Source: Acidobacteriota bacterium (GTDB lineage Bacteria; Acidobacteriota; UBA6911; RPQK01; JAJDTT01). From it: a stretch of 56,229 bases of DNA. Of the stretch, positions 21,737 to 33,024 are shown piece after piece. The notes under the pieces are model-generated. The model saw only the letters and a program-made list of their open reading frames with translations, had not been told where the DNA came from and ran no database searches. The first letter of the stretch is position 1, and every line of letters starts with the position of its first letter. The stretch spans positions 1 through 56,229 of the forward strand of contig JAPPLF010000020.1 of assembly GCA_028874215.1 (NCBI GenBank), written 5' to 3'. Position numbers and translations under genes: made by a program.

Positions 21737-22576
21737 TCAGTTCAGCAGCGTCGCCTTCTTGATGTAGTCCAGCTTGGGGAAATCCCGCTTGAGATAACCG
21801 TTCCCTTCGGCTCGAATCCGCCCCTGACTCGGCCCTCTGCCCGAAGGAGCCCCCTCGCCGTACCCCTTGTAGACGGAGTCCACCACCTCCATCCCTTCGA
21901 TGACTCGGCCGAAGGGAGAAAAGCCGTAGCTGTCCAGGCTCCCGTTGTCCTTGTAGTTGATGAAGAACTGCACCGACCGGGAGTGGGGCATGTTGGTCTT
22001 GGCAAAGGAAATGTAGCCCCGCTGGTTCGACTTCACCACCGGGTCGTCCTGGATGTTGGCGGCGCTCCACTTCTGCCCGATGGCCGGATCGCCATGCATG
22101 CCGAACTGGGCCATGAACCCCTCGATCACCCGGAAGAAGGCGATGTTCCGGAAGTAGCCGATCTTCACCAGGTTGTAGAAACGGTCCGCGCCTCGAGGCG
22201 ACCATTCCCGGGTCACCTCGACCACGAAGTCCCCCTTGGTGGTCTCGAATCTGGCCTTGAAACTGGCGGGAGCCTTCGCGTCAGCCAGCGAGGGATTCCT
22301 CAGAGCAGGATTGGGCCCTTTCATGGGCCGGGGCGGTTTGTCCATCTTGACGGGCTCCGGTTTCGGTTCGTCGGGTTTCTTGGCCGGTTCCGGCGGGGTC
22401 ACATCCACAGCATCGCCGGCCGCTTCCTCGGCGGTTATCTTGTCGCCCGCATCGGCCACGGCCTCTTCAGCCGCCGGCGGCTCCGCCAAATCCGGTTCAT
22501 CAGTGACAGGCGCGCTACAGGAGAGCGAAAGCAACAACAAGAAAAACGCACAACAGCTCCATCGCCTCTCATGCAT
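21737..22576 (-). CDS. Cyclophilin-type peptidyl-prolyl isomerase, lipoprotein
   Basis: The N terminus has a short hydrophobic stretch ending in LSLSCSAP, a lipobox with Cys near residue 20. A Pro/Glu/Ala-rich linker (about residues 22-100) is followed by a cyclophilin domain: FYNLVKIGYF, the active-site FFRVIEGFMAQFG near 145, and later VQFFINYKDN and FGRVIEGMEVVD. The enzyme would help fold periplasmic or outer-membrane proteins while tethered to a membrane. Family core residues are present, with the usual GGD loop changed (FGMHGDP). A ribosome site AAGGAG lies 10 bases before the ATG. Confidence 0.9.
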   Translation of the reverse strand: MHERRWSCCAFFLLLLSLSCSAPVTDEPDLAEPPAAEEAVADAGDKITAEEAAGDAVDVTPPEPAKKPDEPKPEPVKMDKPPRPMKGPNPALRNPSLADAKAPASFKARFETTKGDFVVEVTREWSPRGADRFYNLVKIGYFRNIAFFRVIEGFMAQFGMHGDPAIGQKWSAANIQDDPVVKSNQRGYISFAKTNMPHSRSVQFFINYKDNGSLDSYGFSPFGRVIEGMEVVDSVYKGYGEGAPSGRGPSQGRIRAEGNGYLKRDFPKLDYIKKATLLN

Positions 22577-22689
22577 GTCTCTTTATCTCCTTCATGGTTT
22601 CTCGTGTCCGGTCCTCTCTCCAGTCCGCCGATTATTGCCCGGCAGGGGGTTGGGTTCAAGAGACAGGGTCTCGAAGCCGAACTCGTATT

Positions 22690-22747
22690 GGCAATGCGCG
22701 ATTGCCGATCCGCGTTTCTTGACACCCTTCCCGGTCGTCCATAGGTT
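22690..22747 (+). promoter_or_regulatory. Promoter with upstream inverted repeat before the propeller-protein gene
   Basis: A sigma70-like promoter has TTGACA at 22719-22724, a 17-bp spacer and TAGGTT at 22742-22747, about 20 bases before the ATG at 22767. Just upstream is a perfect inverted repeat GGCAAT/ATTGCC (22690-22695 and 22701-22706, 5-base loop) that could be an operator. The ribosome site AGGGAGG is at about 22753-22759. Confidence 0.6.
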
Positions 22748-22766
22748 GGTGCAGGGAGGTCGACAT

Positions 22767-24422
22767 ATGCAGCAGAGGCGCCTTGGATGGTCGAACAGTG
22801 AGATTGGCGGGTCCCCGGCCGGCGCCGAAACCGGCTGGCGGTTCGCCGCGGGTGTCCTGGCGGCATGCCTTGTCTTGGCGGGGACGGCGGCGGCGGGATC
22901 TGCGGGCCTGCTTCATATCGGTGGAAACAAACAGCTCTTCATCGACGACCACGTCATCGAGAGTCTCAGCCACGTCAAGCAGATCCTCAACCCGGCCGTG
23001 AAACATCCGGCAAACCCCCTTTTGAAGCAGGACCGGCCCTGGGAGGGTCATTACATCGGGCTCCAACGGATCATCTACGACCCGGATCAGGGCATGTACC
23101 GGATGTGGTACCGGGTCACCGGAGCGTTCGAGTCCCAGAAAGGGGGCGCCGATCGGCTCAGGCCTTACCGCTGGGACTGGAGCGTGGTCGACGGAAAAGC
23201 AGTTCGCAGCAAGGCGGAGGAGGTTTACGGTTACAGGCAATACGCCGGCGGCGAGGATTGGCTTCTCTGCTACGCCACCTCCCGGGACGGCATCCAATGG
23301 GAGAAACCCAATCTGGGCCAGGTGGAGTTCGAGGGCTCCCGCGACAACAACCTTCTGCCGCCCGGCACCCTGGTCCCCCTCTTTCGGGACGAGCACGAAA
23401 CCGATCCCGCCAAGCGCTACAAGGCCATGAGGTCCGAGGGCACTACTCCCACCGTGTGGAAGCCGGGAATCAAGCCGGGGATGCGGCAGAGCCTCTACTA
23501 TTCGCCCGACGGCTTCGAGTGGACGCCCTACGAGAACAACCCGGTGATCGACACCGCTCCCAAAATAGGCCGCTGGGGACCCACCCAACACATGGGCTGG
23601 GATCCCATCCGGCAAGTCTACGCCGTGTTCATGGAGCAGTGCCTGCACCGGGGCTGCCCCCAGGGGCAGCGGATCATCGGCCGGGCCGAGAGTCCGGACA
23701 TGACCCGATGGACCCCGGACCAGAACGTCCTGATCCAGGATGAACTGGACTTTCCCGACACGGAGTTCTACTCCATGCCGGTGATGGCCTACGAGGGGAT
23801 CTACATCGGACTGCCCTGGATCTTCCGCACCACGAACACTCTGCACTACCCCCAACTGGCCTTCAGCCGGGATGGAATCCGGTTCGAGCGGCAATACCGC
23901 CAGCCCTTCCTGCAGGTGGGCGACAAGGGAGACTTCGACGAGAGCACCATCTACGTGCACCAGCCCATGGTCCGTGACGGCGAGATCCGCATCTACTACT
24001 ACGGAGGCAACTGGAGAGGGTCCGAATCGCTCCACGCCCAGGGAGACCGGGCCATGTTCGCCGTGGCCCTGGCCACGGTTCGCGAGGACGGTTTCGTCTC
24101 CGTGGACGCCGGCAAGATCCACCCTGGTTTCCTCACGACCCGCTTCCTCAGCTTCGAGGGCCGCCGCCTGGTGGTGAACCTGGAAGCCGCCAAGCACAAC
24201 CACGGCGCGGGACAACCCGAGGTCCGGGTCGAGATCATCGGTAACGACTACCATCCGATCCCGGGCTATACCCTGGACGAGTCCGATCCGGCCCGGGTGA
24301 CCGGGAAGCACGTCATGAGCTGGCGGGGCAGGACGGAATTGGGAGCCTTGGCCGGAACCCCCATCCAACTGCGATTCGAGATACGAAACGCCAAGCTCTT
24401 TTCGTTCCAGTTCCGGCCGTAA
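22767..24422 (+). CDS. Secreted glycoside-hydrolase-like (GH32/43 five-bladed propeller) protein
   Basis: A 551-residue protein with a signal peptide (hydrophobic RFAAGVLAACLVLAGTAAA, residues ~25-45). The mature part has the repeated Asp/Trp-rich blades of fructosidase-like propellers: LFIDDHVIESL, YDPDQGMYRMWYR, SRDGIQWEKPNLG, FSRDGIRFE. A C-terminal beta-sandwich seems to follow (residues ~440-551). The family members are usually annotated as GH32-like but lack proof of activity, and no complete GH32 signature WMNDPNG is seen. It is paralogous to the convergent gene 24459-25952: both share the string GQVEFEGSRDNN. Start ATG 22767 has AGGGAGG 8 bases before it. Confidence 0.78.
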   Translation: MQQRRLGWSNSEIGGSPAGAETGWRFAAGVLAACLVLAGTAAAGSAGLLHIGGNKQLFIDDHVIESLSHVKQILNPAVKHPANPLLKQDRPWEGHYIGLQRIIYDPDQGMYRMWYRVTGAFESQKGGADRLRPYRWDWSVVDGKAVRSKAEEVYGYRQYAGGEDWLLCYATSRDGIQWEKPNLGQVEFEGSRDNNLLPPGTLVPLFRDEHETDPAKRYKAMRSEGTTPTVWKPGIKPGMRQSLYYSPDGFEWTPYENNPVIDTAPKIGRWGPTQHMGWDPIRQVYAVFMEQCLHRGCPQGQRIIGRAESPDMTRWTPDQNVLIQDELDFPDTEFYSMPVMAYEGIYIGLPWIFRTTNTLHYPQLAFSRDGIRFERQYRQPFLQVGDKGDFDESTIYVHQPMVRDGEIRIYYYGGNWRGSESLHAQGDRAMFAVALATVREDGFVSVDAGKIHPGFLTTRFLSFEGRRLVVNLEAAKHNHGAGQPEVRVEIIGNDYHPIPGYTLDESDPARVTGKHVMSWRGRTELGALAGTPIQLRFEIRNAKLFSFQFRP

Positions 24423-24435
24423 GCGAGAAACCGGG

Positions 24436-24460
24436 AGGGCGGCCGCAAGGGTCGCGCCCT
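24436..24460. terminator. Hairpin between the convergent propeller genes, possible bidirectional terminator
   Basis: AGGGCG at 24436-24441 pairs with CGCCCT at 24455-24460. No T-run follows on either strand, so factor-independent termination would be weak. The sequence motif (GGAGGGCG-CCGCAAGG-GCCC) is also seen at about 13442-13465 and is probably a small dispersed repeat. It overlaps the stop codon of the minus-strand gene by two bases. Confidence 0.4.
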
Positions 24461-25952
24461 ACCGAAACCGGAACGAATAGAGATCGGCGTCCTGCAGGAC
24501 GAAGCGCAGGCGGACCGTCTTCCCGGCGACCCGGCGGAGGGGTTTCGGACGAACCTTGCCTCCGTAGATCCATCCCGCCTTCCCCTCCAGCTCGTCCCCC
24601 CAGATGGGGACCGATTCGGTCAGCGAGAGTTCGGGCACCGGATTGCCGTTGACGTCCTGGACCTCCACCTGAATGGAGCCGGCCGCGGAAGTGGAGTAGT
24701 TCAGGACCAGGTTCTCTCCGCTGAAACGGAACGGTTTCGTGATCAGCTCGCCTCCCGGATAGCCGGCGCTGGCGGAGGCGAAGCCGTCGGTCCGGACCAC
24801 GACGCGCTGCAGGTGGGCCGACGGATAGGTGTAGTGCTGCACCAGGTAGAGGGAAAGCTCCCCCGGCGCCGTGGGGACGATGCCCCGGGCAACCAAACCG
24901 TTCCGGTGGATCCAGTTACGCCGTTCCCTTCCGGGACGGATGAAGGCTTCCATGAAGCGGTGCCAATGGACGCCGTCGCGGCTGCTCATGAGGACACCGT
25001 CGGAGAGGCCGGGCCATTCCGCGGCAGGGGTGGGATCCAGATGTTGGGGAATGCGGTAGGTGACGAAGCGCTTGGGAAAGGCCAGGTAGATATGGGGCGC
25101 CCGAAAATAGGGCACGGTGGCATTGGTGTAGAGATGTTCGGTGGGAGCGTCGCCGTAGTCCACCCACCGGCCCTCGGACCATTCCACGAAGTCCTTCGAG
25201 GTAGCGTACTTCAGGGTCCGCACCCCGTGGAGGAAATCCCGGTAGAGCGCCACGTAGACCCCCCGCTCGCCATCCCAGAAAGCCACGTTGTGGGAGTCGA
25301 AGGCGCCGTCGGTGAGGACCGGAATCTCACGCATCCAGCTCCAGCGGATGCCGTCGGGAGAGGCCAAAGCCACGAGACCCCGATGGTTCCCGGGCTTGGC
25401 GAAGGCCACCGCCTTGTAGCGGGCCTCCGCCGGAGCCGCCGGATTGTCGTCCCGGAAGGGATTCAGCTTGGCGGCGCCCCGGACCTCCAGGATATTGTTG
25501 TCCCGGGAGCCCTCGAACTCCACCTGCCCCAATGAGGGACGGGTCCAGTGGATGCCGTCGCGGCTCTCCGCGTAGCAGACGACCTTCTCGTGGGCGGCGA
25601 CCCAGGTCTCCCCCGGCTCCAGCTCTTCCCGGTGGATGTAGTCGACCGCGGAGCTGCCCCGGTAGTACATGCGGTAGATTTCGCCGTCCTTGAAGACCGC
25701 CACGTGGAAGGGAATATTCCCTTCCCAGGGCTGGTCGAAGACGAAGACCTTCTCGGCGCGCCGGGGCTGCTGGACCTCCAACTCCACCCCATCCATGGAC
25801 TCGATGAGAGTGTCGTCGACGAAAAGCTCCAGGCGGTTTCCCAGGTCGGGAGCCGGGTCGGAATCGGCAGCCTTCTTTCCGTGGCCCGACGCCCCGAAGC
25901 CGGACCCGCCCGCCAGAACCAGCAATACGAATATCCGCAAAATCGATTTCAT
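24459..25952 (-). CDS. Secreted glycoside-hydrolase-like propeller protein, paralogue of the 22767 gene
   Basis: A 497-residue protein with a signal peptide (MKSILRIFVLLVLAGGSGFGA). It has the same layout as its convergent neighbour: LFVDDTLIESMDG at the start, EIYRMYYRG, SRDGIHWTRPSLGQVEFEG, SPDGIRWSW, SSRDGVHWHRF and a closing beta domain ending in SFRFR. It is probably a carbohydrate-active or carbohydrate-binding propeller; the substrate is unknown. The gene starts only 28 bases after the last gene of the seven-gene cluster and has AAGGAG 6 bases before its ATG, so it could be read through from that cluster. Confidence 0.78.
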   Translation of the reverse strand: MKSILRIFVLLVLAGGSGFGASGHGKKAADSDPAPDLGNRLELFVDDTLIESMDGVELEVQQPRRAEKVFVFDQPWEGNIPFHVAVFKDGEIYRMYYRGSSAVDYIHREELEPGETWVAAHEKVVCYAESRDGIHWTRPSLGQVEFEGSRDNNILEVRGAAKLNPFRDDNPAAPAEARYKAVAFAKPGNHRGLVALASPDGIRWSWMREIPVLTDGAFDSHNVAFWDGERGVYVALYRDFLHGVRTLKYATSKDFVEWSEGRWVDYGDAPTEHLYTNATVPYFRAPHIYLAFPKRFVTYRIPQHLDPTPAAEWPGLSDGVLMSSRDGVHWHRFMEAFIRPGRERRNWIHRNGLVARGIVPTAPGELSLYLVQHYTYPSAHLQRVVVRTDGFASASAGYPGGELITKPFRFSGENLVLNYSTSAAGSIQVEVQDVNGNPVPELSLTESVPIWGDELEGKAGWIYGGKVRPKPLRRVAGKTVRLRFVLQDADLYSFRFR

Positions 25953-25980: not shown

Positions 25981-26886
25981 CTACATGCCGAGCCGCCGGC
26001 TCGCCGGATCGATGATCCAGAGCCAATCGTCCGCGAGAAACTCCAGCCTCTGGGCCATCAGGGCGATGCGCCCCATCACCGTGTAGCCGAAACCGGCCCC
26101 GAAGGTGATCATGAGGAACCAGATTCCCAGGCGCGAGACGCCGCCCACCATCCCCTTGTGTTCGATGGAAAAGAAGAAATAGGTCAGGCAGGACAAGACT
26201 CCCACCACAATGGTCAGGTTCTGAATGGAGGCCGAAAAATCGAATCCCTGGGACCCGACCACCACCAGGGGAAGTATCGTGCTCTGGATCTGCCGGAGAA
26301 AGTCGCTCTGGAGGTAGCCCAGGAGCCGGATCCCGGCGGTGGCGCCGATGAAGAAGGCCAGGGCCCAGCGGGAGATCCAGCCCCCAACCGGCGAGAGCCG
26401 CATCAACATCAGGACGCTCAGCAGCAGCGGAAACAGGTAGATGAGTTCCTGCTCCTGGGATTCGGGGAGGCCCGGAAGCAGCGAACTCCGGATCAGATCG
26501 GGAGCCAGCTTGCTGAAGAGGTTCTGAACCATTCCGGTCCAGAACCCGACGACCATCCAGTAGGCCGCCGAGACCCCGACGAAGACGGCTTCCGCCAGTT
26601 TGTAAAGGGGGTTGTCGCCGTAAAGAAAGGAGAGGATGCAGAGCGTGAAGAGGGCGGCCAGCCAGTTCCCCGCGGTGCGGGACCAACTCACGCGGACCCC
26701 CTCTTCTCCCTGCCGCTTGGGATCCACTCCCACGGCCCGGCTCCACGATTCCTGGCCCGGTTCCTGGACTTCCACGGGCTGGTCCTGAACGTAGACCATC
26801 CCCATGCCTCCCGTGGCCAGCCTCACCAGCAGGTAGATCCCGGCCACCACCATCAATGCCATCCAAACCCATCCGGACCGGCTCAT
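25981..26886 (-). CDS. Multi-pass membrane protein, last gene of the GlmL-like cluster
   Basis: A 301-residue protein with an N-terminal helix (residues 7-22), a short polar stretch and about six further hydrophobic segments between residues 72 and 285. I do not recognise the family. Charged loops such as YGDNPLYKLAEA and FFFSIEHKGMVGG separate the helices. The ATG overlaps the stop of the previous gene (ATGA at 26883-26886), so production is coupled to it. By position it is a likely membrane component of a complex with the neighbouring proteins. No catalytic motif is visible. Confidence 0.8.
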   Translation of the reverse strand: MSRSGWVWMALMVVAGIYLLVRLATGGMGMVYVQDQPVEVQEPGQESWSRAVGVDPKRQGEEGVRVSWSRTAGNWLAALFTLCILSFLYGDNPLYKLAEAVFVGVSAAYWMVVGFWTGMVQNLFSKLAPDLIRSSLLPGLPESQEQELIYLFPLLLSVLMLMRLSPVGGWISRWALAFFIGATAGIRLLGYLQSDFLRQIQSTILPLVVVGSQGFDFSASIQNLTIVVGVLSCLTYFFFSIEHKGMVGGVSRLGIWFLMITFGAGFGYTVMGRIALMAQRLEFLADDWLWIIDPASRRLGM

Positions 26887-27743
26887 GACGCCACCCCCTT
26901 TCGCCGCTCCCAGAAGTAGATGACGTTGCCCAAAACGATGAGCAGGAGCACCAGCATGTGGGCCAGGAGCTGCGGGCCCATGCGCCGCAGTCCCTCCTGT
27001 GCCGTGTCATTGTCCGCCAAGGCGGGATAGAGGTCGATGACCGCCTGCTCGTACTCGGCCGCCGCCTTGATGGCCGCCAGCAGGCCGGTCAGTTGTGACG
27101 GAATATAGGGATACAGCGACGGGGCCGTGACTCCAGTGGTCCCCCCGACGATCTTCAGGTCGTAGGGGGTCGCGGCATAGAGCACCCACTCCTTGGTGCC
27201 CGGATAGCCCGCGCTCACGTTGACGATGAGGTCCATCTGGCGGATGTTCTTCAGATTCCTGGTGAGCGGCAGCTCGTCCAGGCTGGTCCCGTCCACGTCG
27301 TTGGCGAAGAGCTTCTTCAGATCCCCCACCACCACCTTGATGACCCCCTCGCTGCCGGGACGGAACCCCATGTTCACGTAATCGCGCCCGTATTCGTAGC
27401 CGGGAAACTCCCGATTCAGGAGGTCGATGCTCTCCTGGATCAACGGTCCGCCGGTGGCCCAGAGCGTCAGGAAGTAGAGCTTGTGCTTCTTGTAGGCGCA
27501 GTGGCGGACGAAAGCGGCGGCCATGGGGCTCAGCTCGCCCCGGCTGGCGGGGTCGAAGTCCCAGGCCATGAGGACGTCCGAGCCTTCGGGGAGCTCTTCG
27601 ATGGCCGAACGGACGTTCAGGACCATGGGCGACGGACTCTCGGGAAACCGGATCCCGAACAGAAGCGGAATCAGGATGGACAACAGCATCAGCAGGAAGA
27701 TCCAGCGCCGGTCCAGGTTGCGCAAGAATTCGGTGACCTTCAT
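26883..27743 (-). CDS. Double-anchored protein with a ~220-residue extracytoplasmic domain
   Basis: A 286-residue protein with a helix at residues 14-31 and another at about 258-278, enclosing a soluble domain. The orientation with the domain outside is favoured by positive residues before the first helix (NLDRRW) and after the last (WERRKG). The domain has the patterns DVLMAWDFDPAS, KLYFLTLWATGG and DLIVNVSAGYPGTKEW, which look like alternating beta strands and helices of a Rossmann-like or periplasmic-binding fold. I do not recognise the family. The gap to the upstream gene is 3 bases and the downstream gene overlaps by 4. Confidence 0.8.
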   Translation of the reverse strand: MKVTEFLRNLDRRWIFLLMLLSILIPLLFGIRFPESPSPMVLNVRSAIEELPEGSDVLMAWDFDPASRGELSPMAAAFVRHCAYKKHKLYFLTLWATGGPLIQESIDLLNREFPGYEYGRDYVNMGFRPGSEGVIKVVVGDLKKLFANDVDGTSLDELPLTRNLKNIRQMDLIVNVSAGYPGTKEWVLYAATPYDLKIVGGTTGVTAPSLYPYIPSQLTGLLAAIKAAAEYEQAVIDLYPALADNDTAQEGLRRMGPQLLAHMLVLLLIVLGNVIYFWERRKGVAS

Positions 27744-27746
27744 GGG

Positions 27747-28433
27747 CTATTCCTCCGTTCCCAGATAGGAGCGATCGACGCCCAGCAGAATCTTCAGGGA
27801 AAGGGAGACCACGCCCAAGCCGATCCCGATGGTGATGGCCCTGTTCCCGGCCAGGTTGAAGATGTTCATGATGGTCTCGGAGAGGTTGGCGAATTGGAGA
27901 GGCTCGGGCAGCCATCCCGTCAACGCCGTGCCGGCGTACGTCCTTCCCACCAGAACGATGAAGGCGGTGGAGAGCAGGATGATGGCCTCGGTGTTCTTGG
28001 CCCGGAAGGCCCGGAACGCGGCCGAGGCGATGAAGCAGGCCAGCAGGGCGAACATGGTGGCCCCCAGGGGATAGAAGGCATACTGGTAGATGAACCAGAA
28101 AGAGCTGCCCTCTTGAACGTAGTCCCCCGACCAGGCGAACTGGGGAAACTGGGCGCTGGGGTGGACGCCCATCTTGGCCATGCCCACCACCAGGGTCAGG
28201 AAGAAGGCGATGACGGTGACGGCTGCGTAGCCCCAGCCGGCCCGCCGGTCCGAGATCTTCTGCAGGTTGAGCTTCACCAGGTTGGCGCCTCCCAGAATGA
28301 AGGCGATTGCGGCCAGGATGTCGAACCAGATCATGGCCTCTTCGCCCCACGATTGGGTGTAGGGAACGAAGTGGGCGCCGATGAGGACGAATCCCGTCAC
28401 CGCGGCAATGAGCAGGGGGAGAGTTCTCTTCAT
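27747..28433 (-). CDS. Six-helix membrane protein of the GlmL-like cluster
   Basis: A 228-residue protein with about six hydrophobic segments (residues 5-22, 35-52, 67-86, 112-135, 148-165 and 198-216). A short loop after helix 3 contains KMGVHPSAQFPQFAWSGDYVQEGS, probably extracytoplasmic. I do not recognise the family and see no transporter signature. It lies 12 bases after the FnIII-type gene and 3 bases before the double-anchored gene, in the same transcription unit. Confidence 0.8.
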   Translation of the reverse strand: MKRTLPLLIAAVTGFVLIGAHFVPYTQSWGEEAMIWFDILAAIAFILGGANLVKLNLQKISDRRAGWGYAAVTVIAFFLTLVVGMAKMGVHPSAQFPQFAWSGDYVQEGSSFWFIYQYAFYPLGATMFALLACFIASAAFRAFRAKNTEAIILLSTAFIVLVGRTYAGTALTGWLPEPLQFANLSETIMNIFNLAGNRAITIGIGLGVVSLSLKILLGVDRSYLGTEE

Positions 28434-28445
28434 AGCGTGCTTTCC

Positions 28446-29657
28446 TTACCAGCCCTGGTTGCCCAGGACGTTGTCGGTCAGATACGTCAGCACCTGGCCC
28501 AGAACCGGAGCATCGGTCAGGACCGCGACGGTGGAGAGCAGGCATCCGACCACCACCAGCGTTCCACCCAGGACCTTTCCCACGTCCTGGCCCTTGAGGC
28601 TGCCCAGTTGGTGGCCCTCCCCGGAGAGGTAGGCCGAGGCGGCGAACAGCTCCTCCCCGATGAGGGTGTAATCGCACGCCGCCACGAAGAAGGGGAGCTG
28701 CGAGGGCATGGCGGTCCCGGCCACCTGGATGGCGCCGACGGCGTTTCCGGTCTCGGCCAGAATCAGCGACTCGGCAAAGAACGCGCCCATGTAGAAGCAG
28801 GCCGCCGGCCGCTCCCGGAGCATCTTCCCGGTGACGCCGGCCACGTAGCCGAACTGCTCGTCCGTCAGGTAGTAGACCGAGTCTTCGTTGAAGGCATCGG
28901 GACGGCCCGCCCCCAGGTAGGCCGCCTCCACGGTCTCCCGGCAGGCCGTCATGACCAGGGAACGGGAAGTGGGCACGTCCAGCCGGGCGTCGAACTCGGC
29001 CGTCAGTCCCGCCACCCGCGACAGGACCGTCACGCCGGCGAGGGTCTGCATGTCGTTGATGTCCAGGATTCCCGGGACGTAAAGGCAGGGACGGCCCATC
29101 TCGGTGGCCCGCCCCACTGCCTCATCCACCGCTTCCAGCCCGGCGATCCGGCGGACCTTCAATTCCCGTCCGCTCCGGGCCAGTTGGATGAAATAAACGA
29201 CGCTGCCCCCCACGATCAGCAGGACCACGCCGAACCAGAATTGGGAAAAGTCGAAGTACTGCATCACCGGCGTCACCGGACTCACGGTGGCGGCGGCGGG
29301 CGATCGCGCGCCGTCCGGGCCCAACGCCACAACCTGGTAGAAGTAGCTGGCTCCCCGCGTGCACCGGTCGTCCTTGAAGGACCGGGTCTGGTAGGTCTCT
29401 TCTCCGATCCTGACGAACGCCTCCTCGCCCGCTTCGCGCCTCAGGATCTCGTAGGCAACGACCAATCGTTCGGCGGGCCGGGGTTGGTCGTCGGGGGACA
29501 ACTCCCACTCGACCCGCACCGCCTCCCCGGCGTCGTTGGGAAAGTCGGCGGCCCGGACATCACCGGGCGGCCGGGGGGATTGGGCCAGGATCGGGGAGGC
29601 CCCGCCCCCAAGGACGAGACCGGCGGCCAGCACCGACAAGAAAATCGATTTGTCCAT
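28446..29657 (-). CDS. Membrane protein with signal peptide, FnIII-like domain and cytoplasmic DUF6754-like domain
   Basis: A 403-residue protein. A signal peptide (SIFLSVLAAGLVLGGGASPILAQ) is followed by a fibronectin-III-like domain (residues ~30-125; VEWELSPDD, YEILRRE, SYFYQVVAL). A helix at about 135-155 leads to a conserved-looking domain that starts VRRIAGLEAVDEAVGRATEMGRP, with PGILDINDMQTLAG and ACFYMGAFFAESL later. One or two further helices occur at about 345-385. I associate this domain with DUF6754 from memory, not a search. The ATG at 29657 has GAGG 10 bases upstream; a GTG at 29666 overlaps the previous stop but lacks ribosome-site spacing. Confidence 0.77.
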   Translation of the reverse strand: MDKSIFLSVLAAGLVLGGGASPILAQSPRPPGDVRAADFPNDAGEAVRVEWELSPDDQPRPAERLVVAYEILRREAGEEAFVRIGEETYQTRSFKDDRCTRGASYFYQVVALGPDGARSPAAATVSPVTPVMQYFDFSQFWFGVVLLIVGGSVVYFIQLARSGRELKVRRIAGLEAVDEAVGRATEMGRPCLYVPGILDINDMQTLAGVTVLSRVAGLTAEFDARLDVPTSRSLVMTACRETVEAAYLGAGRPDAFNEDSVYYLTDEQFGYVAGVTGKMLRERPAACFYMGAFFAESLILAETGNAVGAIQVAGTAMPSQLPFFVAACDYTLIGEELFAASAYLSGEGHQLGSLKGQDVGKVLGGTLVVVGCLLSTVAVLTDAPVLGQVLTYLTDNVLGNQGW

Positions 29658-29662
29658 CGTAA

Positions 29663-30787
29663 TCACGCCTCAATCAGTTCCACGTTGGCCCGCGGCACCA
29701 CCAGCCGGCGGCCCGACTCCAATCGTACCTCCAGGACCCGCGCCCGCGAACCGGAATCCAGGATCCGGGGTTCTGCCGGCAGCCCGGAAACCACGCCGAT
29801 CAATCCGAAATGCGGGTCCCGGATGACCCGGACCGGCGTCCCCAATTCCAGCAGGCCGGCAGGGCGAGCGGCGTCCACTTCACCCGCGGTTCCGTCAGGC
29901 GACGGAATCACGATTTCCGGCCGCTGGACTCCGGCCCGGATCTGAGTGGCGCCGTTGACCGACGCCGGGTCCCCTTCCCGGGAGGCCAGCAACCGGAATG
30001 TCTTGCGGGCCATGGCGATGGTTCCGAAACCCTCGGTGATGATCAGGGTCGTGGCCACCGGTTCCGATCCGGTGACTGCGACCCCCAGGTCGTAGCCGAG
30101 GATCTGCCTCAGGTCCGCATCGTCCATGCCTCCCGAGACCAGAGCCGAGATTCCGATCCGAAACGCCTTGCGGACGGCGCCTCCCGTCATCCGGCTGCCG
30201 CCCACGACGACGGCGCCCTGCATCCCCTCGTCCAGCCGGCCGGCCGTCAACTCTTCCTTCTCGTCCCGGCAGGCCATCCGCACCGGTCCGAACGCCTCGC
30301 CCCCGATCCCGAAGATCCCCTGGATGAGGGTGGCGTCCGACTCCAGCACGACTCCTTCTCCCGGGATCTCTTCGGCCACCTGGCCGGCCAGATAGGCCAG
30401 GACCCGGACCGGGATCGGTTCTCCGCGAATGATGACCTGACCCGTGACCTGGGAAATGGACTCGATGGTCCCCGAGACCCTGGCCCTGCACTCCGACTTG
30501 AACATCCCGAATATGCCCTTGGTCCGGGCCAGCGCCTCGCCGGTTTCCACTCGCATACCAGGCTCTTTGAGCATGCATTCGGGGACGTCCGCGGGAGGCA
30601 GCGACAGGAGGTTGGCCACGTTGACCGGGGTGATGTTCCCCGGCATGAAGGTCTGGGCGACCACGTCCCGGGAACCCACCCGCTGTCCGGCGCGAACCAG
30701 AACCTCGCCCTTGATGGGCAGGATCCGGCGGCACCGGTATCGGGTGCGGGGACTGACCTTCAGACCGGGCGTGTAAGCGTGGGCCAT
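29663..30787 (-). CDS. Barrel-sandwich-hybrid protein with C-terminal KOW-like segment, GlmL-cluster partner
   Basis: A 374-residue soluble protein. Near the N terminus are two segments like the lipoyl/biotinyl hybrid fold found in RnfC: LPIKGEVLVRAGQRV (residues ~22-36) and EPGMRVETGEALA followed by RVSGTIESIS. The middle part is glycine-rich (VVVGGSRMTGGAVRKA, GSEPVATTLIITEGFG). The last 60 residues (GTPVRVIRDPHFGLIGVV...) match a KOW-type small barrel. There is no lipoylated Lys context, no Cys cluster and no signal peptide. It lies 21 bases after the ATPase gene and its TGA touches the next gene. It could bind the ATPase or a nucleic acid; both are speculation. Confidence 0.72.
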   Translation of the reverse strand: MAHAYTPGLKVSPRTRYRCRRILPIKGEVLVRAGQRVGSRDVVAQTFMPGNITPVNVANLLSLPPADVPECMLKEPGMRVETGEALARTKGIFGMFKSECRARVSGTIESISQVTGQVIIRGEPIPVRVLAYLAGQVAEEIPGEGVVLESDATLIQGIFGIGGEAFGPVRMACRDEKEELTAGRLDEGMQGAVVVGGSRMTGGAVRKAFRIGISALVSGGMDDADLRQILGYDLGVAVTGSEPVATTLIITEGFGTIAMARKTFRLLASREGDPASVNGATQIRAGVQRPEIVIPSPDGTAGEVDAARPAGLLELGTPVRVIRDPHFGLIGVVSGLPAEPRILDSGSRARVLEVRLESGRRLVVPRANVELIEA

Positions 30788-30808
30788 ACTGCGTCGACCT
30801 CGCCACTC

Positions 30809-32620
30809 CTATGCCGGGACCGGGGGGACCAGATCCAGATCCCGGACCCATTGGGCCATGGCCTTGCGGCAGGCCTCTCGATCGTCGGGCAGCGACAGAG
30901 GGCGGCCTCTGGCGTCCAGCAGGACTCCCACCGTCCCACCCCTGAGCTCACCCTCCACGGGCCGGCCGGGACCCGCCCCCGCGTCCACCTTCCGCGCCGG
31001 CTCCACCACGATTCGGGCGCCGGCTCCCAGGCCCAACGGCAGCCTCCTGACTTCGCCGAAGGAGAGGACGCCCTCCTCCTCCAGACCGCCGGAGATGGCG
31101 TACCGGAACGCCGGGCTGCCCCAGGCGCCGGTTCCCCTGGGGGAAACGCAGGTTCCCAGGGAGATGAGGCAATCCCTCCGGAACACCTGGAGCGCCGCCT
31201 CCGGATGGACCTGGGCCAGCACGCCCAGGTGGGGCATCATGAAGATGCTGTCCTTGGCCAGCCAGGTGATCCCCTCGGGCTGAAAGGCGTCCACCAGGAG
31301 CGCCGCTGTCTGCTGCATCAGCGGAGCGTGGGAGAGGACTCCGCCCGAACCCACCAACAGATCCAGCTTCATATTGTCCACCAGGGTCTGGCCGCTGGCC
31401 TCCTGGCTGAAGGTATCTCCCACGGTCCTCTGCTGCTGCACCCCCTTGAGCGTGGTGGCGAACTGCTTGTGCTGGTCGTAGGCCAGGCGCAACGCCTCGC
31501 GGGCCACGGCCTGCTCGAAGAAGAGGGATTCCCGGGTCTGGGGAATCGTGGTGGGCCGGATCATCTTGTTCTTGACGTGGTTTCGCAGTTCCCCCTCCTC
31601 CATCTCCAGGTGGACCCAACGGAGGATGGAGGGCAGCGTCGCCTCGGCGCACACGTTGGAGATGGAGTAGCTCATTCCCAGATTGGCGCTCACGGTCCGG
31701 TTGAAGGTGCCGTCGAAGACGCTGAAGACATCGGTGGTCGCTCCGCCGATGTCCACGCCCACCACGTTGATCCGCTGCTGTTGGGCAATCCTCTGGAGGA
31801 TGTTCCCCACCGCACCCGGCGTGGGCATGATGGGGGCGTCGGTCCAACGGATCAGCCGGTCGTACCCGGGGGCATGGGCCATGACGTGTTCCAGAAACAG
31901 GTCATGGATCCTGTCCCGGGCCGGTCCCAGATTCTCCCGTTCCAGGACCGGACGCAGGTTGGGAACGATGGAGAGCTGGACCGATTCGTCGAAGGTCTGC
32001 TCCACCAGCGGCGCCGCGTCCTGGTTCCCCGCGAAGATCACCGGCATCCGGTACTCGGCGCCGAAGCGGGGCTGGGGCCGGGCCGGCGCGATGAGCTCGG
32101 CCATCTGCACGACGTGGCGGGTGGTTCCGCCGTCGGTTCCGCCCGAGATCAGCACCATGTCGGGCCGCAGCTCCCGGATCCGGTGGATCTGCTCGTGGGG
32201 AAGGCGGCGGTCATTGGAGGCCAGAACGTCCATGACGATGGCGCCGGCCCCCAGGGCCGCCCGCTTGGCGCTGGCGGCGGTCATCTCCCGGACCACGCCG
32301 GCCACCATCATCTGGAGGCCGCCGCCGGCGCTGGAAGTGGAGATGTAGAGGTCGCATCCTTCGCCGCCGGTCGCCGGCCTCAGGATCCGGCCCGCATCGT
32401 CGATGAGACGGCGCCCGGCCATTTCGGCCACTTCGGCGACGGCGTTGACGACCCCCAGGGTGACGTCGGCCGCCGGTTCCTCCACGGTCGTGGGAGCCTC
32501 GCCCCGGTGGGTCTGCCGGTACTCTCCGTCGACCTTCTGGATAAGGATGGCTTTGGTGGTGGTGCTCCCGCAGTCGGTGGCCAGGATCACGTTGACGGAG
32601 TCGGGATCGATCTGCTTCAT
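30809..32620 (-). CDS. GlmL/MutL-family ASKHA ATPase (glutamate mutase accessory-like)
   Basis: A 603-residue actin/Hsp70-fold ATPase. Phosphate-1 motif is LATDCGSTTTKAILI near residues 13-27, phosphate-2 is VVGVDIGGATTDVFSV near 295, and the adenosine-type motif is LVGSGGVLSH near 425. The family includes GlmL, which acts in B12-dependent glutamate mutase operons and is proposed to reactivate the mutase. No mutase subunit, B12-binding DxHxxG domain or methylaspartase is found in the window, so the partner must differ. The ATG at 32620 overlaps the preceding stop (ATGA at 32617-32620). A longer form from 32656 is less likely. Confidence 0.85.
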   Translation of the reverse strand: MKQIDPDSVNVILATDCGSTTTKAILIQKVDGEYRQTHRGEAPTTVEEPAADVTLGVVNAVAEVAEMAGRRLIDDAGRILRPATGGEGCDLYISTSSAGGGLQMMVAGVVREMTAASAKRAALGAGAIVMDVLASNDRRLPHEQIHRIRELRPDMVLISGGTDGGTTRHVVQMAELIAPARPQPRFGAEYRMPVIFAGNQDAAPLVEQTFDESVQLSIVPNLRPVLERENLGPARDRIHDLFLEHVMAHAPGYDRLIRWTDAPIMPTPGAVGNILQRIAQQQRINVVGVDIGGATTDVFSVFDGTFNRTVSANLGMSYSISNVCAEATLPSILRWVHLEMEEGELRNHVKNKMIRPTTIPQTRESLFFEQAVAREALRLAYDQHKQFATTLKGVQQQRTVGDTFSQEASGQTLVDNMKLDLLVGSGGVLSHAPLMQQTAALLVDAFQPEGITWLAKDSIFMMPHLGVLAQVHPEAALQVFRRDCLISLGTCVSPRGTGAWGSPAFRYAISGGLEEEGVLSFGEVRRLPLGLGAGARIVVEPARKVDAGAGPGRPVEGELRGGTVGVLLDARGRPLSLPDDREACRKAMAQWVRDLDLVPPVPA

Positions 32621-33024
32621 TTGCCAGCCGAGTCGAGTTCTTCGATCCGGCGACAAAGATAGTCCACCGAGCCCCGATGCTCAAGAAAGGCGGCCAGGTG
32701 CCGGTGCCCGTGGGACTGGGTGAGCCCCGAGAGCACGGGCGAAAGGAAATGCAAGAGCTGGGAACCCAGGAAGTTGAGGGGCCGGGACATTTCAAGAAAC
32801 ATGAGAGCCGGCGTCGCCAGCCGGCGTCGCACCAGCTCCCGGCAGATCCCGTCGGCCACCTGGCGCTGCTCGTCCGTGGGTTGGAATTCGGTTGGCGTAT
32901 CTACGGCAAAGGCGTGCCGCCAACCCTTTCGCGGCCTTCCCTCTTCTTTTTTCGCCAATCTGAGACTCCCAGGAATTATAACCCGAATTTCCCGAAACTT
33001 GAGAATCGCATCCAGGCTCACCAT
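32617..33024 (-). CDS. Small conserved-looking protein, first gene of the GlmL-like cluster
   Basis: Up to 135 residues. The C-terminal ~95 residues are amphipathic helices (ELVRRRLATPALMFLEMSRPLNFLGSQ) ending in YLCRRIEELDSAGK. I do not know its function. The first 22 residues may not be translated: a TATAAT box lies within them on the minus strand and a TTG at 32958 follows GGGAG with 7 bases, giving a 113-residue product. The stop overlaps the ATPase start by ATGA. It may be a small adapter for the ATPase, which is inference from coupling. Confidence 0.65.
   Translation of the reverse strand: MVSLDAILKFREIRVIIPGSLRLAKKEEGRPRKGWRHAFAVDTPTEFQPTDEQRQVADGICRELVRRRLATPALMFLEMSRPLNFLGSQLLHFLSPVLSGLTQSHGHRHLAAFLEHRGSVDYLCRRIEELDSAGK
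32975..33003 (-). promoter_or_regulatory. Candidate promoter of the GlmL-like cluster
   Basis: On the minus strand a perfect TATAAT lies at 32980-32975. The -35 region 17-18 bases upstream (TCTCAAG) is poor. If real, transcription would begin near 32968 and exclude the ATG at 33024, favouring the TTG start at 32958 for the first gene. Confidence 0.35.

Follow-up and report, generated by a model that had tools for sequence, protein, structure and literature searches.

The seven genes at positions 25981-33024 of the window (the whole 56,229-nucleotide stretch of DNA that was analysed) form a genuine system that is conserved widely and apparently has not been described before, and there is strong evidence that its GlmL-type ATPase (g2) and its DUF6754 membrane module (g4-g7) belong together. 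To the reading that the genes encode an ATP-dependent inner-membrane or envelope machine, in which the ATPase docks on the module and then assembles, activates or cycles (resets) it, we give about an even chance. A first-pass annotation had described the cluster as a separate system with none such known. This stands, since the ATPase has the same neighbours in other genomes, and glutamate mutase is not adjacent and not a general feature of the genomes; a literature search, whose coverage of subscription journals and preprints is thin, gave no description of the system.

Table 1. Genes of the cluster and a putative promoter element, in window coordinates
Feature	Position	Strand	Description
g1	32617..33024	-	Small protein; ORF of 135 aa; no transmembrane segment
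g2	30809..32620	-	ASKHA ATPase of the Pfam MutL/GlmL superfamily, 603 aa
g3	29663..30787	-	Soluble, adaptor-like; beta-rich N-terminal part, alpha/beta middle, C-terminal KOW/SH3-like domain
g4	28446..29666	-	Signal-peptide-like N-terminus, FnIII-like extracytoplasmic domain, TM, cytoplasmic DUF6754, second hydrophobic segment (predicted)
g5	27747..28433	-	Multi-TM, about 5 hydrophobic segments; extracytoplasmic loop with lineage-specific inserts (predicted)
g6	26883..27743	-	TM, extracytoplasmic Rossmann-like alpha/beta domain, TM (predicted); many invariant polar residues
g7	25981..26886	-	Multi-TM (predicted); invariant polar residues near membrane segments
TATAAT	32975..32980	-	Possible -10 element before the g1 TTG start, as read from the sequence

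All seven ORFs lie on the minus strand, and every one is open and ends at its own stop. The junctions from g1 to g7 measure -4 (ATGA), +21, -4, +12, +3 and -4 bases, confirming the tight spacing (4-base overlaps or gaps of 3-21 bases) noted at first. The start of g2 is most likely ATG 32620 (603 aa), not TTG 32656. For g1, TTG 32958 (about 113 aa) may be the start instead of ATG 33024: the first 35 or so residues of the long ORF are not conserved, and an SD-like GGGAG and the TATAAT fall inside the long form; a promoter scan ahead of g1 gave nothing above threshold, and no clear -35 is seen by the TATAAT. The conserved core of g1 reads hAFav...R...Pa...LE..RPln...Q..hF..P. Pfam and NCBIfam return no significant family for five of the seven proteins (g1, g3, g5, g6 and g7). 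A reading of the cluster as a defence system was rejected, as none of the seven proteins (0/7) matches the PADLOC models of anti-phage defence. Downstream of the cluster, the window encodes two related proteins (24459-25952, minus strand, and 22236-24422, plus strand) that share an LFVDD.xIES-type motif, have no Pfam match and resemble sugar-active enzymes that are secreted.

When genomes were scanned with g4, at least 80 loci were found, and HMMs were then built from them. Among the roughly 84 sources listed, these match g4 in 84, g5 in 81, g6 in 79, g7 in 74, g3 in 55, g2 in 47 and g1 in 41 loci (mostly immediately upstream of g2), and part of the shortfall is due to contig ends. The complete set of seven, in the order 1-2-3-4-5-6-7 and on one strand, is present in at least 34 of about 83 related loci, so the ATPase keeps these neighbours elsewhere; such full loci occur in Planctomycetota, Marinimicrobia, Verrucomicrobia and others. 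As the same genes recur in the same order in distant phyla, the cluster is not a product of chance. The g4-g7 module recurs also in Zixibacteria, Eisenbacteria and Calditrichota, and the order 4-5-6-7 is retained almost universally among the loci compared. Some Marinimicrobia have the alternative order 2-3-1-4-5-6-7, and g1-g3 stand apart from the module in some lineages. The DUF6754 set is found in 60/60 Zixibacteria, 38/61 Marinimicrobia and 31/119 Planctomycetota genomes and in several other phyla, and is kept in Marinimicrobia genomes of 0.8-1.0 Mb. With all 60 sampled Zixibacteria and several phyla carrying it, the set is probably important to large, mostly uncultured groups.

The window's own genus has probably gained the cluster horizontally, judging from the g4 tree, in which the genus nests among Planctomycetaceae (SH-aLRT 86 with locus L010), and from relatives that are without the set. 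Of 60 relatives of the window's genome, only those in the genus have DUF6754; GlmL above cut-off is likewise limited to the genus, except for one short contig of a relative (G016) that also bears g1 and the start of g3.

g2 matches PF13941 (MutL) over the whole model (1-450 of 450) with 425 bits (cut-off 27, E = 3e-127), which upholds its initial description as a GlmL/MutL-like ASKHA ATPase. The phosphate-binding motifs ATDCGSTTTK and GVDIGGATTD are intact and invariant across 14 divergent homologues; having both phosphate loops of the ASKHA proteins and the acidic residues conserved in them, g2 is predicted to be an ATPase. Its scores lie below the equivalog cut-offs of NCBIfam GlmL NF040745 (233 bits, cut-off 475; relatives 208-233) and of Or-4 NF040744 from ornithine degradation (211 bits, cut-off 600), and below the subfamily cut-off of the TIGR01319 GlmL family (162 bits, cut-off 204). 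The C-terminus is extended by about 100-150 residues. A profile search of g2 against PDB sequences gave nothing significant.

g2 also reaches the Pfam cut-off of Hydantoinase_A (28.2 versus 22.9 bits). Instead of a mechano-chemical ATPase it could accordingly be an enzyme of the hydantoinase/acetophenone-carboxylase type acting on a small molecule by phosphorylation or carboxylation, which we consider unlikely; equally unlikely is the accompanying proposal that g3 is its partner domain and that g4-g7 transport or sense the molecule in question. The MutL match (425 bits) far exceeds that to Hydantoinase_A (28 bits), the cluster has no recurrent partner that resembles a B subunit or is a carboxylase, and one g2 per about five modules (below) better suits a shared service factor, although the barrel-sandwich-like fold of g3 resembles that of carrier domains, and ASKHA domains do occur in ATP-dependent carboxylases/hydrolases (PMC5214803).

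Another explanation takes the GlmL protein for a conventional reactivase that serves a B12-dependent mutase, and its membrane neighbours for accidental. The full-length MutL match and the similarity to NCBIfam GlmL would suit it, but the NCBIfam GlmL and Or-4 cut-offs are both missed by more than half, and the window's own genome has no glutamate mutase E (PF06368). In the loci read, no glutamate mutase was recognised near the core. Of 60 Zixibacteria genomes, 58 have GlmL but only 5 have mutase E above the curated cut-off (55 are without), and none of those five matches is close to the ATPase: each is distant from it or on a different contig. The initial observation that no mutase is present in the cluster thus holds, and relatives do not, for the most part, have a mutase adjacent. 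A glutamate mutase context was rejected on these grounds, and since GlmL tracks DUF6754 instead, the explanation is largely refuted and has very little probability left.

The tracking is close. Ten DUF6754 genomes from several phyla have exactly one MutL/GlmL each. In one planctomycete family, that of a Planctomycetaceae record (101 genomes), DUF6754 is present in 61 and GlmL in 63; 60 genomes have both, 37 have neither and 4 are discordant, three with the ATPase only (two fragmentary) and one with DUF6754 only (a partial match). Fisher's test gives p = 7e-23 for this co-occurrence, in which the family members are related and so do not count as independent events. In some planctomycetes the ATPase lies megabases from the module, with different genes flanking g2, and the two still co-occur; the association is therefore functional and not only positional. 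The co-occurrence denotes functional linkage of the ATPase and the DUF6754 module, not contact.

In Zixibacteria, DUF6754 is present in 60/60 genomes sampled, with 2-6 copies (mostly 5), and the GlmL-type ATPase in 58/60, mostly as a single copy. The unit 4-5-6-7 stands 2-4 times in tandem. In the g4 tree the Zixibacteria copies group by position (SH-aLRT 99 for the first and the third, 86 for most of the second), and the short copies that lack FnIII form a group of their own (SH-aLRT 99). The best cross-genome match comes from the same module position for 34/35 copies of g4, 30/30 of g5, 29/29 of g6 and 28/28 of g7, that is for 121/122 gene copies, versus about one third expected by chance. 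Position-specific clades and same-position best matches identify the tandem modules as ancient positional paralogues, not recent copies. Several kinds of module would thus be kept side by side in Zixibacteria, with one ATPase to serve them. As there is usually one ATPase per about five membrane modules, the ATPase probably activates or assembles them as a shared factor and is not a subunit of fixed stoichiometry. The first-pass annotation had equated tight linkage with stable stoichiometry; for the ATPase this fails at about one per five Zixibacteria modules, and is further contradicted by the planctomycetes in which a distant ATPase co-occurs with the module. One short Zixibacteria module is headed by two consecutive FnIII-less DUF6754 genes (L100:7512-9315, plus strand) and stands upstream of a nucleotidyltransferase and metK; the placement is similar in other Zixibacteria.

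The AF2 model of g3 has a mean pLDDT of 83. Its C-terminal part matches the KOW domain of Spt5 in Foldseek (prob 1.00, TM 0.83 over 52 residues, rmsd 1.5); at the sequence level the KOW match is weak (E = 0.15). A barrel-sandwich fold in the N-terminal part is weakly suggested by an RnfC_N hint (12.3 bits, E = 0.18, below the cut-off of 25.6) and by the beta-rich model. Of the barrel-sandwich/KOW protein proposed earlier, the KOW half is thus supported by the Spt5 likeness, and the other half goes back to that hint and the model. Foldseek gave no whole-protein match for g3, and a profile search against PDB sequences nothing significant. In Marinimicrobia g2 and g3 are fused in one open frame. 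A second, different GlmL family of 933-982 aa is present in four Zixibacteria genomes; towards the C-terminus its members are homologous to g3 (hhalign 99.8%, E = 1.6e-28), so that GlmL with a g3-type domain is a recurrent unit. The two loci read for this family (L106, 5557-8355, plus strand; L107, 4013-6958, minus strand) have no DUF6754 alongside, and a YedF-like small gene adjoins one of them.

g4 matches PF20539 (DUF6754) with 399.5 bits (cut-off 27, E = 7e-120) and has a mean column identity of 68% over 30 diverse rows. To its earlier description as an FnIII-membrane-cytoplasmic protein this adds DUF6754; the FnIII domain itself was not returned by Pfam. Hydropathy and positive-inside charges suggest that g4 has a signal peptide, an FnIII-like domain outside, a TM segment and DUF6754 inside, that g6 carries an alpha/beta domain outside between two TM segments, and that g5 and g7 are multi-pass. 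In the AF2 model the g6 ectodomain has a Rossmann-like fold, with pLDDT mostly above 90; it is probably ligand-binding and may conceivably be GldG/IFT52-like. The invariant residues of g6 include D62, E70, W186, Y213 and E232, and g7 has the invariant motifs DNPxYK..E, RW and YFfFSxEHKG near membrane segments. No homology was found between g6 and g4. The AF2 model of g4-g6 is a read-through of three in-frame genes (g7 was left out) and, as an artificial chain, informs on folds only; its overall confidence is moderate (pTM 0.63). Against PDB structures it has no match below E = 1e-3, and its top matches (Rossmann-type enzymes and receptors) had poor TM-scores and were discarded as noise or generic fold likeness. 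Profile searches of g4, g6 and g7 against PDB sequences gave nothing significant.

The extracytoplasmic loop of g5 carries helical or FG-GAP beta-propeller inserts in relatives. Such variable inserts would suit an envelope sensor or signalling hub, in which g6 and the FnIII/propeller domains sense outside ligands, DUF6754 relays the signal to cytoplasmic partners and g2 and g3 are regulators, and the paralogous modules of Zixibacteria could have different ligands. Four obligatory membrane components, two of them multi-pass with invariant polar residues, are however more than a sensor usually needs, and no kinase, cyclase or regulator recurs alongside; we regard a hub of this kind, relay and regulators included, as improbable. 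In Zixibacteria the g5 of a third tandem module carries FG-GAP repeats (L066:13142-14923, plus strand; E = 4e-28), and the Thermoguttaceae g5 has a helical-looking insert of about 400 aa in place of the FG-GAP propeller. In Calditrichota-type loci the gene right after g4 encodes a protein that by eye resembles an outer-membrane barrel and has no Pfam match (L073; L079, 6344-7294, plus strand; L085, 727-1659, plus strand), and in a Caldithrix record the module includes a gene for a secreted protein that bears a Por_Secre_tail sorting domain (L075:10116-11444, plus strand).

The flanks vary and hold mostly lineage-specific housekeeping genes; only lipid-gene placements recur. plsX-fabH adjoin the cluster in the same direction in 14 loci, uppS-cdsA do so in 5 planctomycete loci (uppS in 6), and in Marinimicrobia loci cdsA immediately precedes the cluster, frequently accompanied by a lipid kinase gene. 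Adjacency to phospholipid and isoprenoid-lipid genes in three lineages is a weak functional lead, suggestive only. It would favour a machine that transports or remodels phospholipid or isoprenoid lipid in the envelope, as would the bPH_6-like g0 that precedes g1 in many loci. As housekeeping genes are frequent neighbours anyway, the flanks are otherwise variable and no lipid-binding fold was detected in the cluster proteins, we see only a slim chance for such a lipid-handling role. g0 is a membrane protein of about 150 aa whose weak bPH_6 likeness lies below the Pfam cut-off; it stands just upstream of g1 in about 27 loci (L016, L018, L023, L027, L036 and others) and is absent from the window.

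For the ATP-dependent envelope machine, we infer topology, physical docking, ATP use and function as follows. g4-g7 would form an inner-membrane module, g4 spanning the membrane with FnIII outside and the conserved DUF6754 inside, g5 and g7 crossing it several times, and g6 supplying the outer Rossmann-like domain, which probably binds a ligand. From the cytoplasm, g2 with the adaptor g3 (and g1) would dock on the module, most plausibly via DUF6754, and ATP-driven domain closure of g2 would assemble, activate or reset it. Much like the ASKHA reactivases that attend to client enzymes, g2 would serve several modules and would not be a one-to-one subunit. More tentatively, and with some doubt, we propose a trans-envelope machine that is powered or cycled by an ATPase of the Hsp70/actin (ASKHA) fold, with one ATPase and several paralogous modules phylum-wide in Zixibacteria; that the ASKHA motor would stand in place of an ABC, AAA+, P-type or SecA-like motor is similarly doubtful. 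If true, an actin/Hsp70-fold ATPase driving a membrane machine would mean that the bacterial envelope has a further, new way of coupling energy, and GlmL-type proteins would have a role apart from B12 enzymes.

Among known systems, GlmL/MutL of glutamate/methylaspartate mutase and Or-4 belong to the same PF13941 superfamily as g2, whose ATP-binding motifs are intact. g2 differs from them and from TIGR01319 in scores far below the cut-offs and in the additional C-terminal residues, and from GlmL and Or-4 in its partner, which is a membrane module, with the mutase absent or distant. The ASKHA subunits of hydantoinase A and acetophenone carboxylase are related through the Hydantoinase_A match, but this is much weaker than that to MutL, and the cluster has no hydantoinase B-like partner. 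PilM of type IV pili and GspL of type II secretion are actin-fold cytoplasmic proteins coupled to an inner-membrane assembly, the arrangement proposed here for g2 and the module; Pfam and NCBIfam detect no PilM, PilN, PilO, PilC or GspL/M/F among the seven proteins. DdrA and EutA are ASKHA reactivases of diol dehydratase and ethanolamine ammonia-lyase, ATP-driven service factors for their clients. No B12 enzyme client is seen for g2, whose clients would be membrane proteins, and the homology is at the superfamily level, but one g2 ATPase per several modules is comparable with such a service factor.
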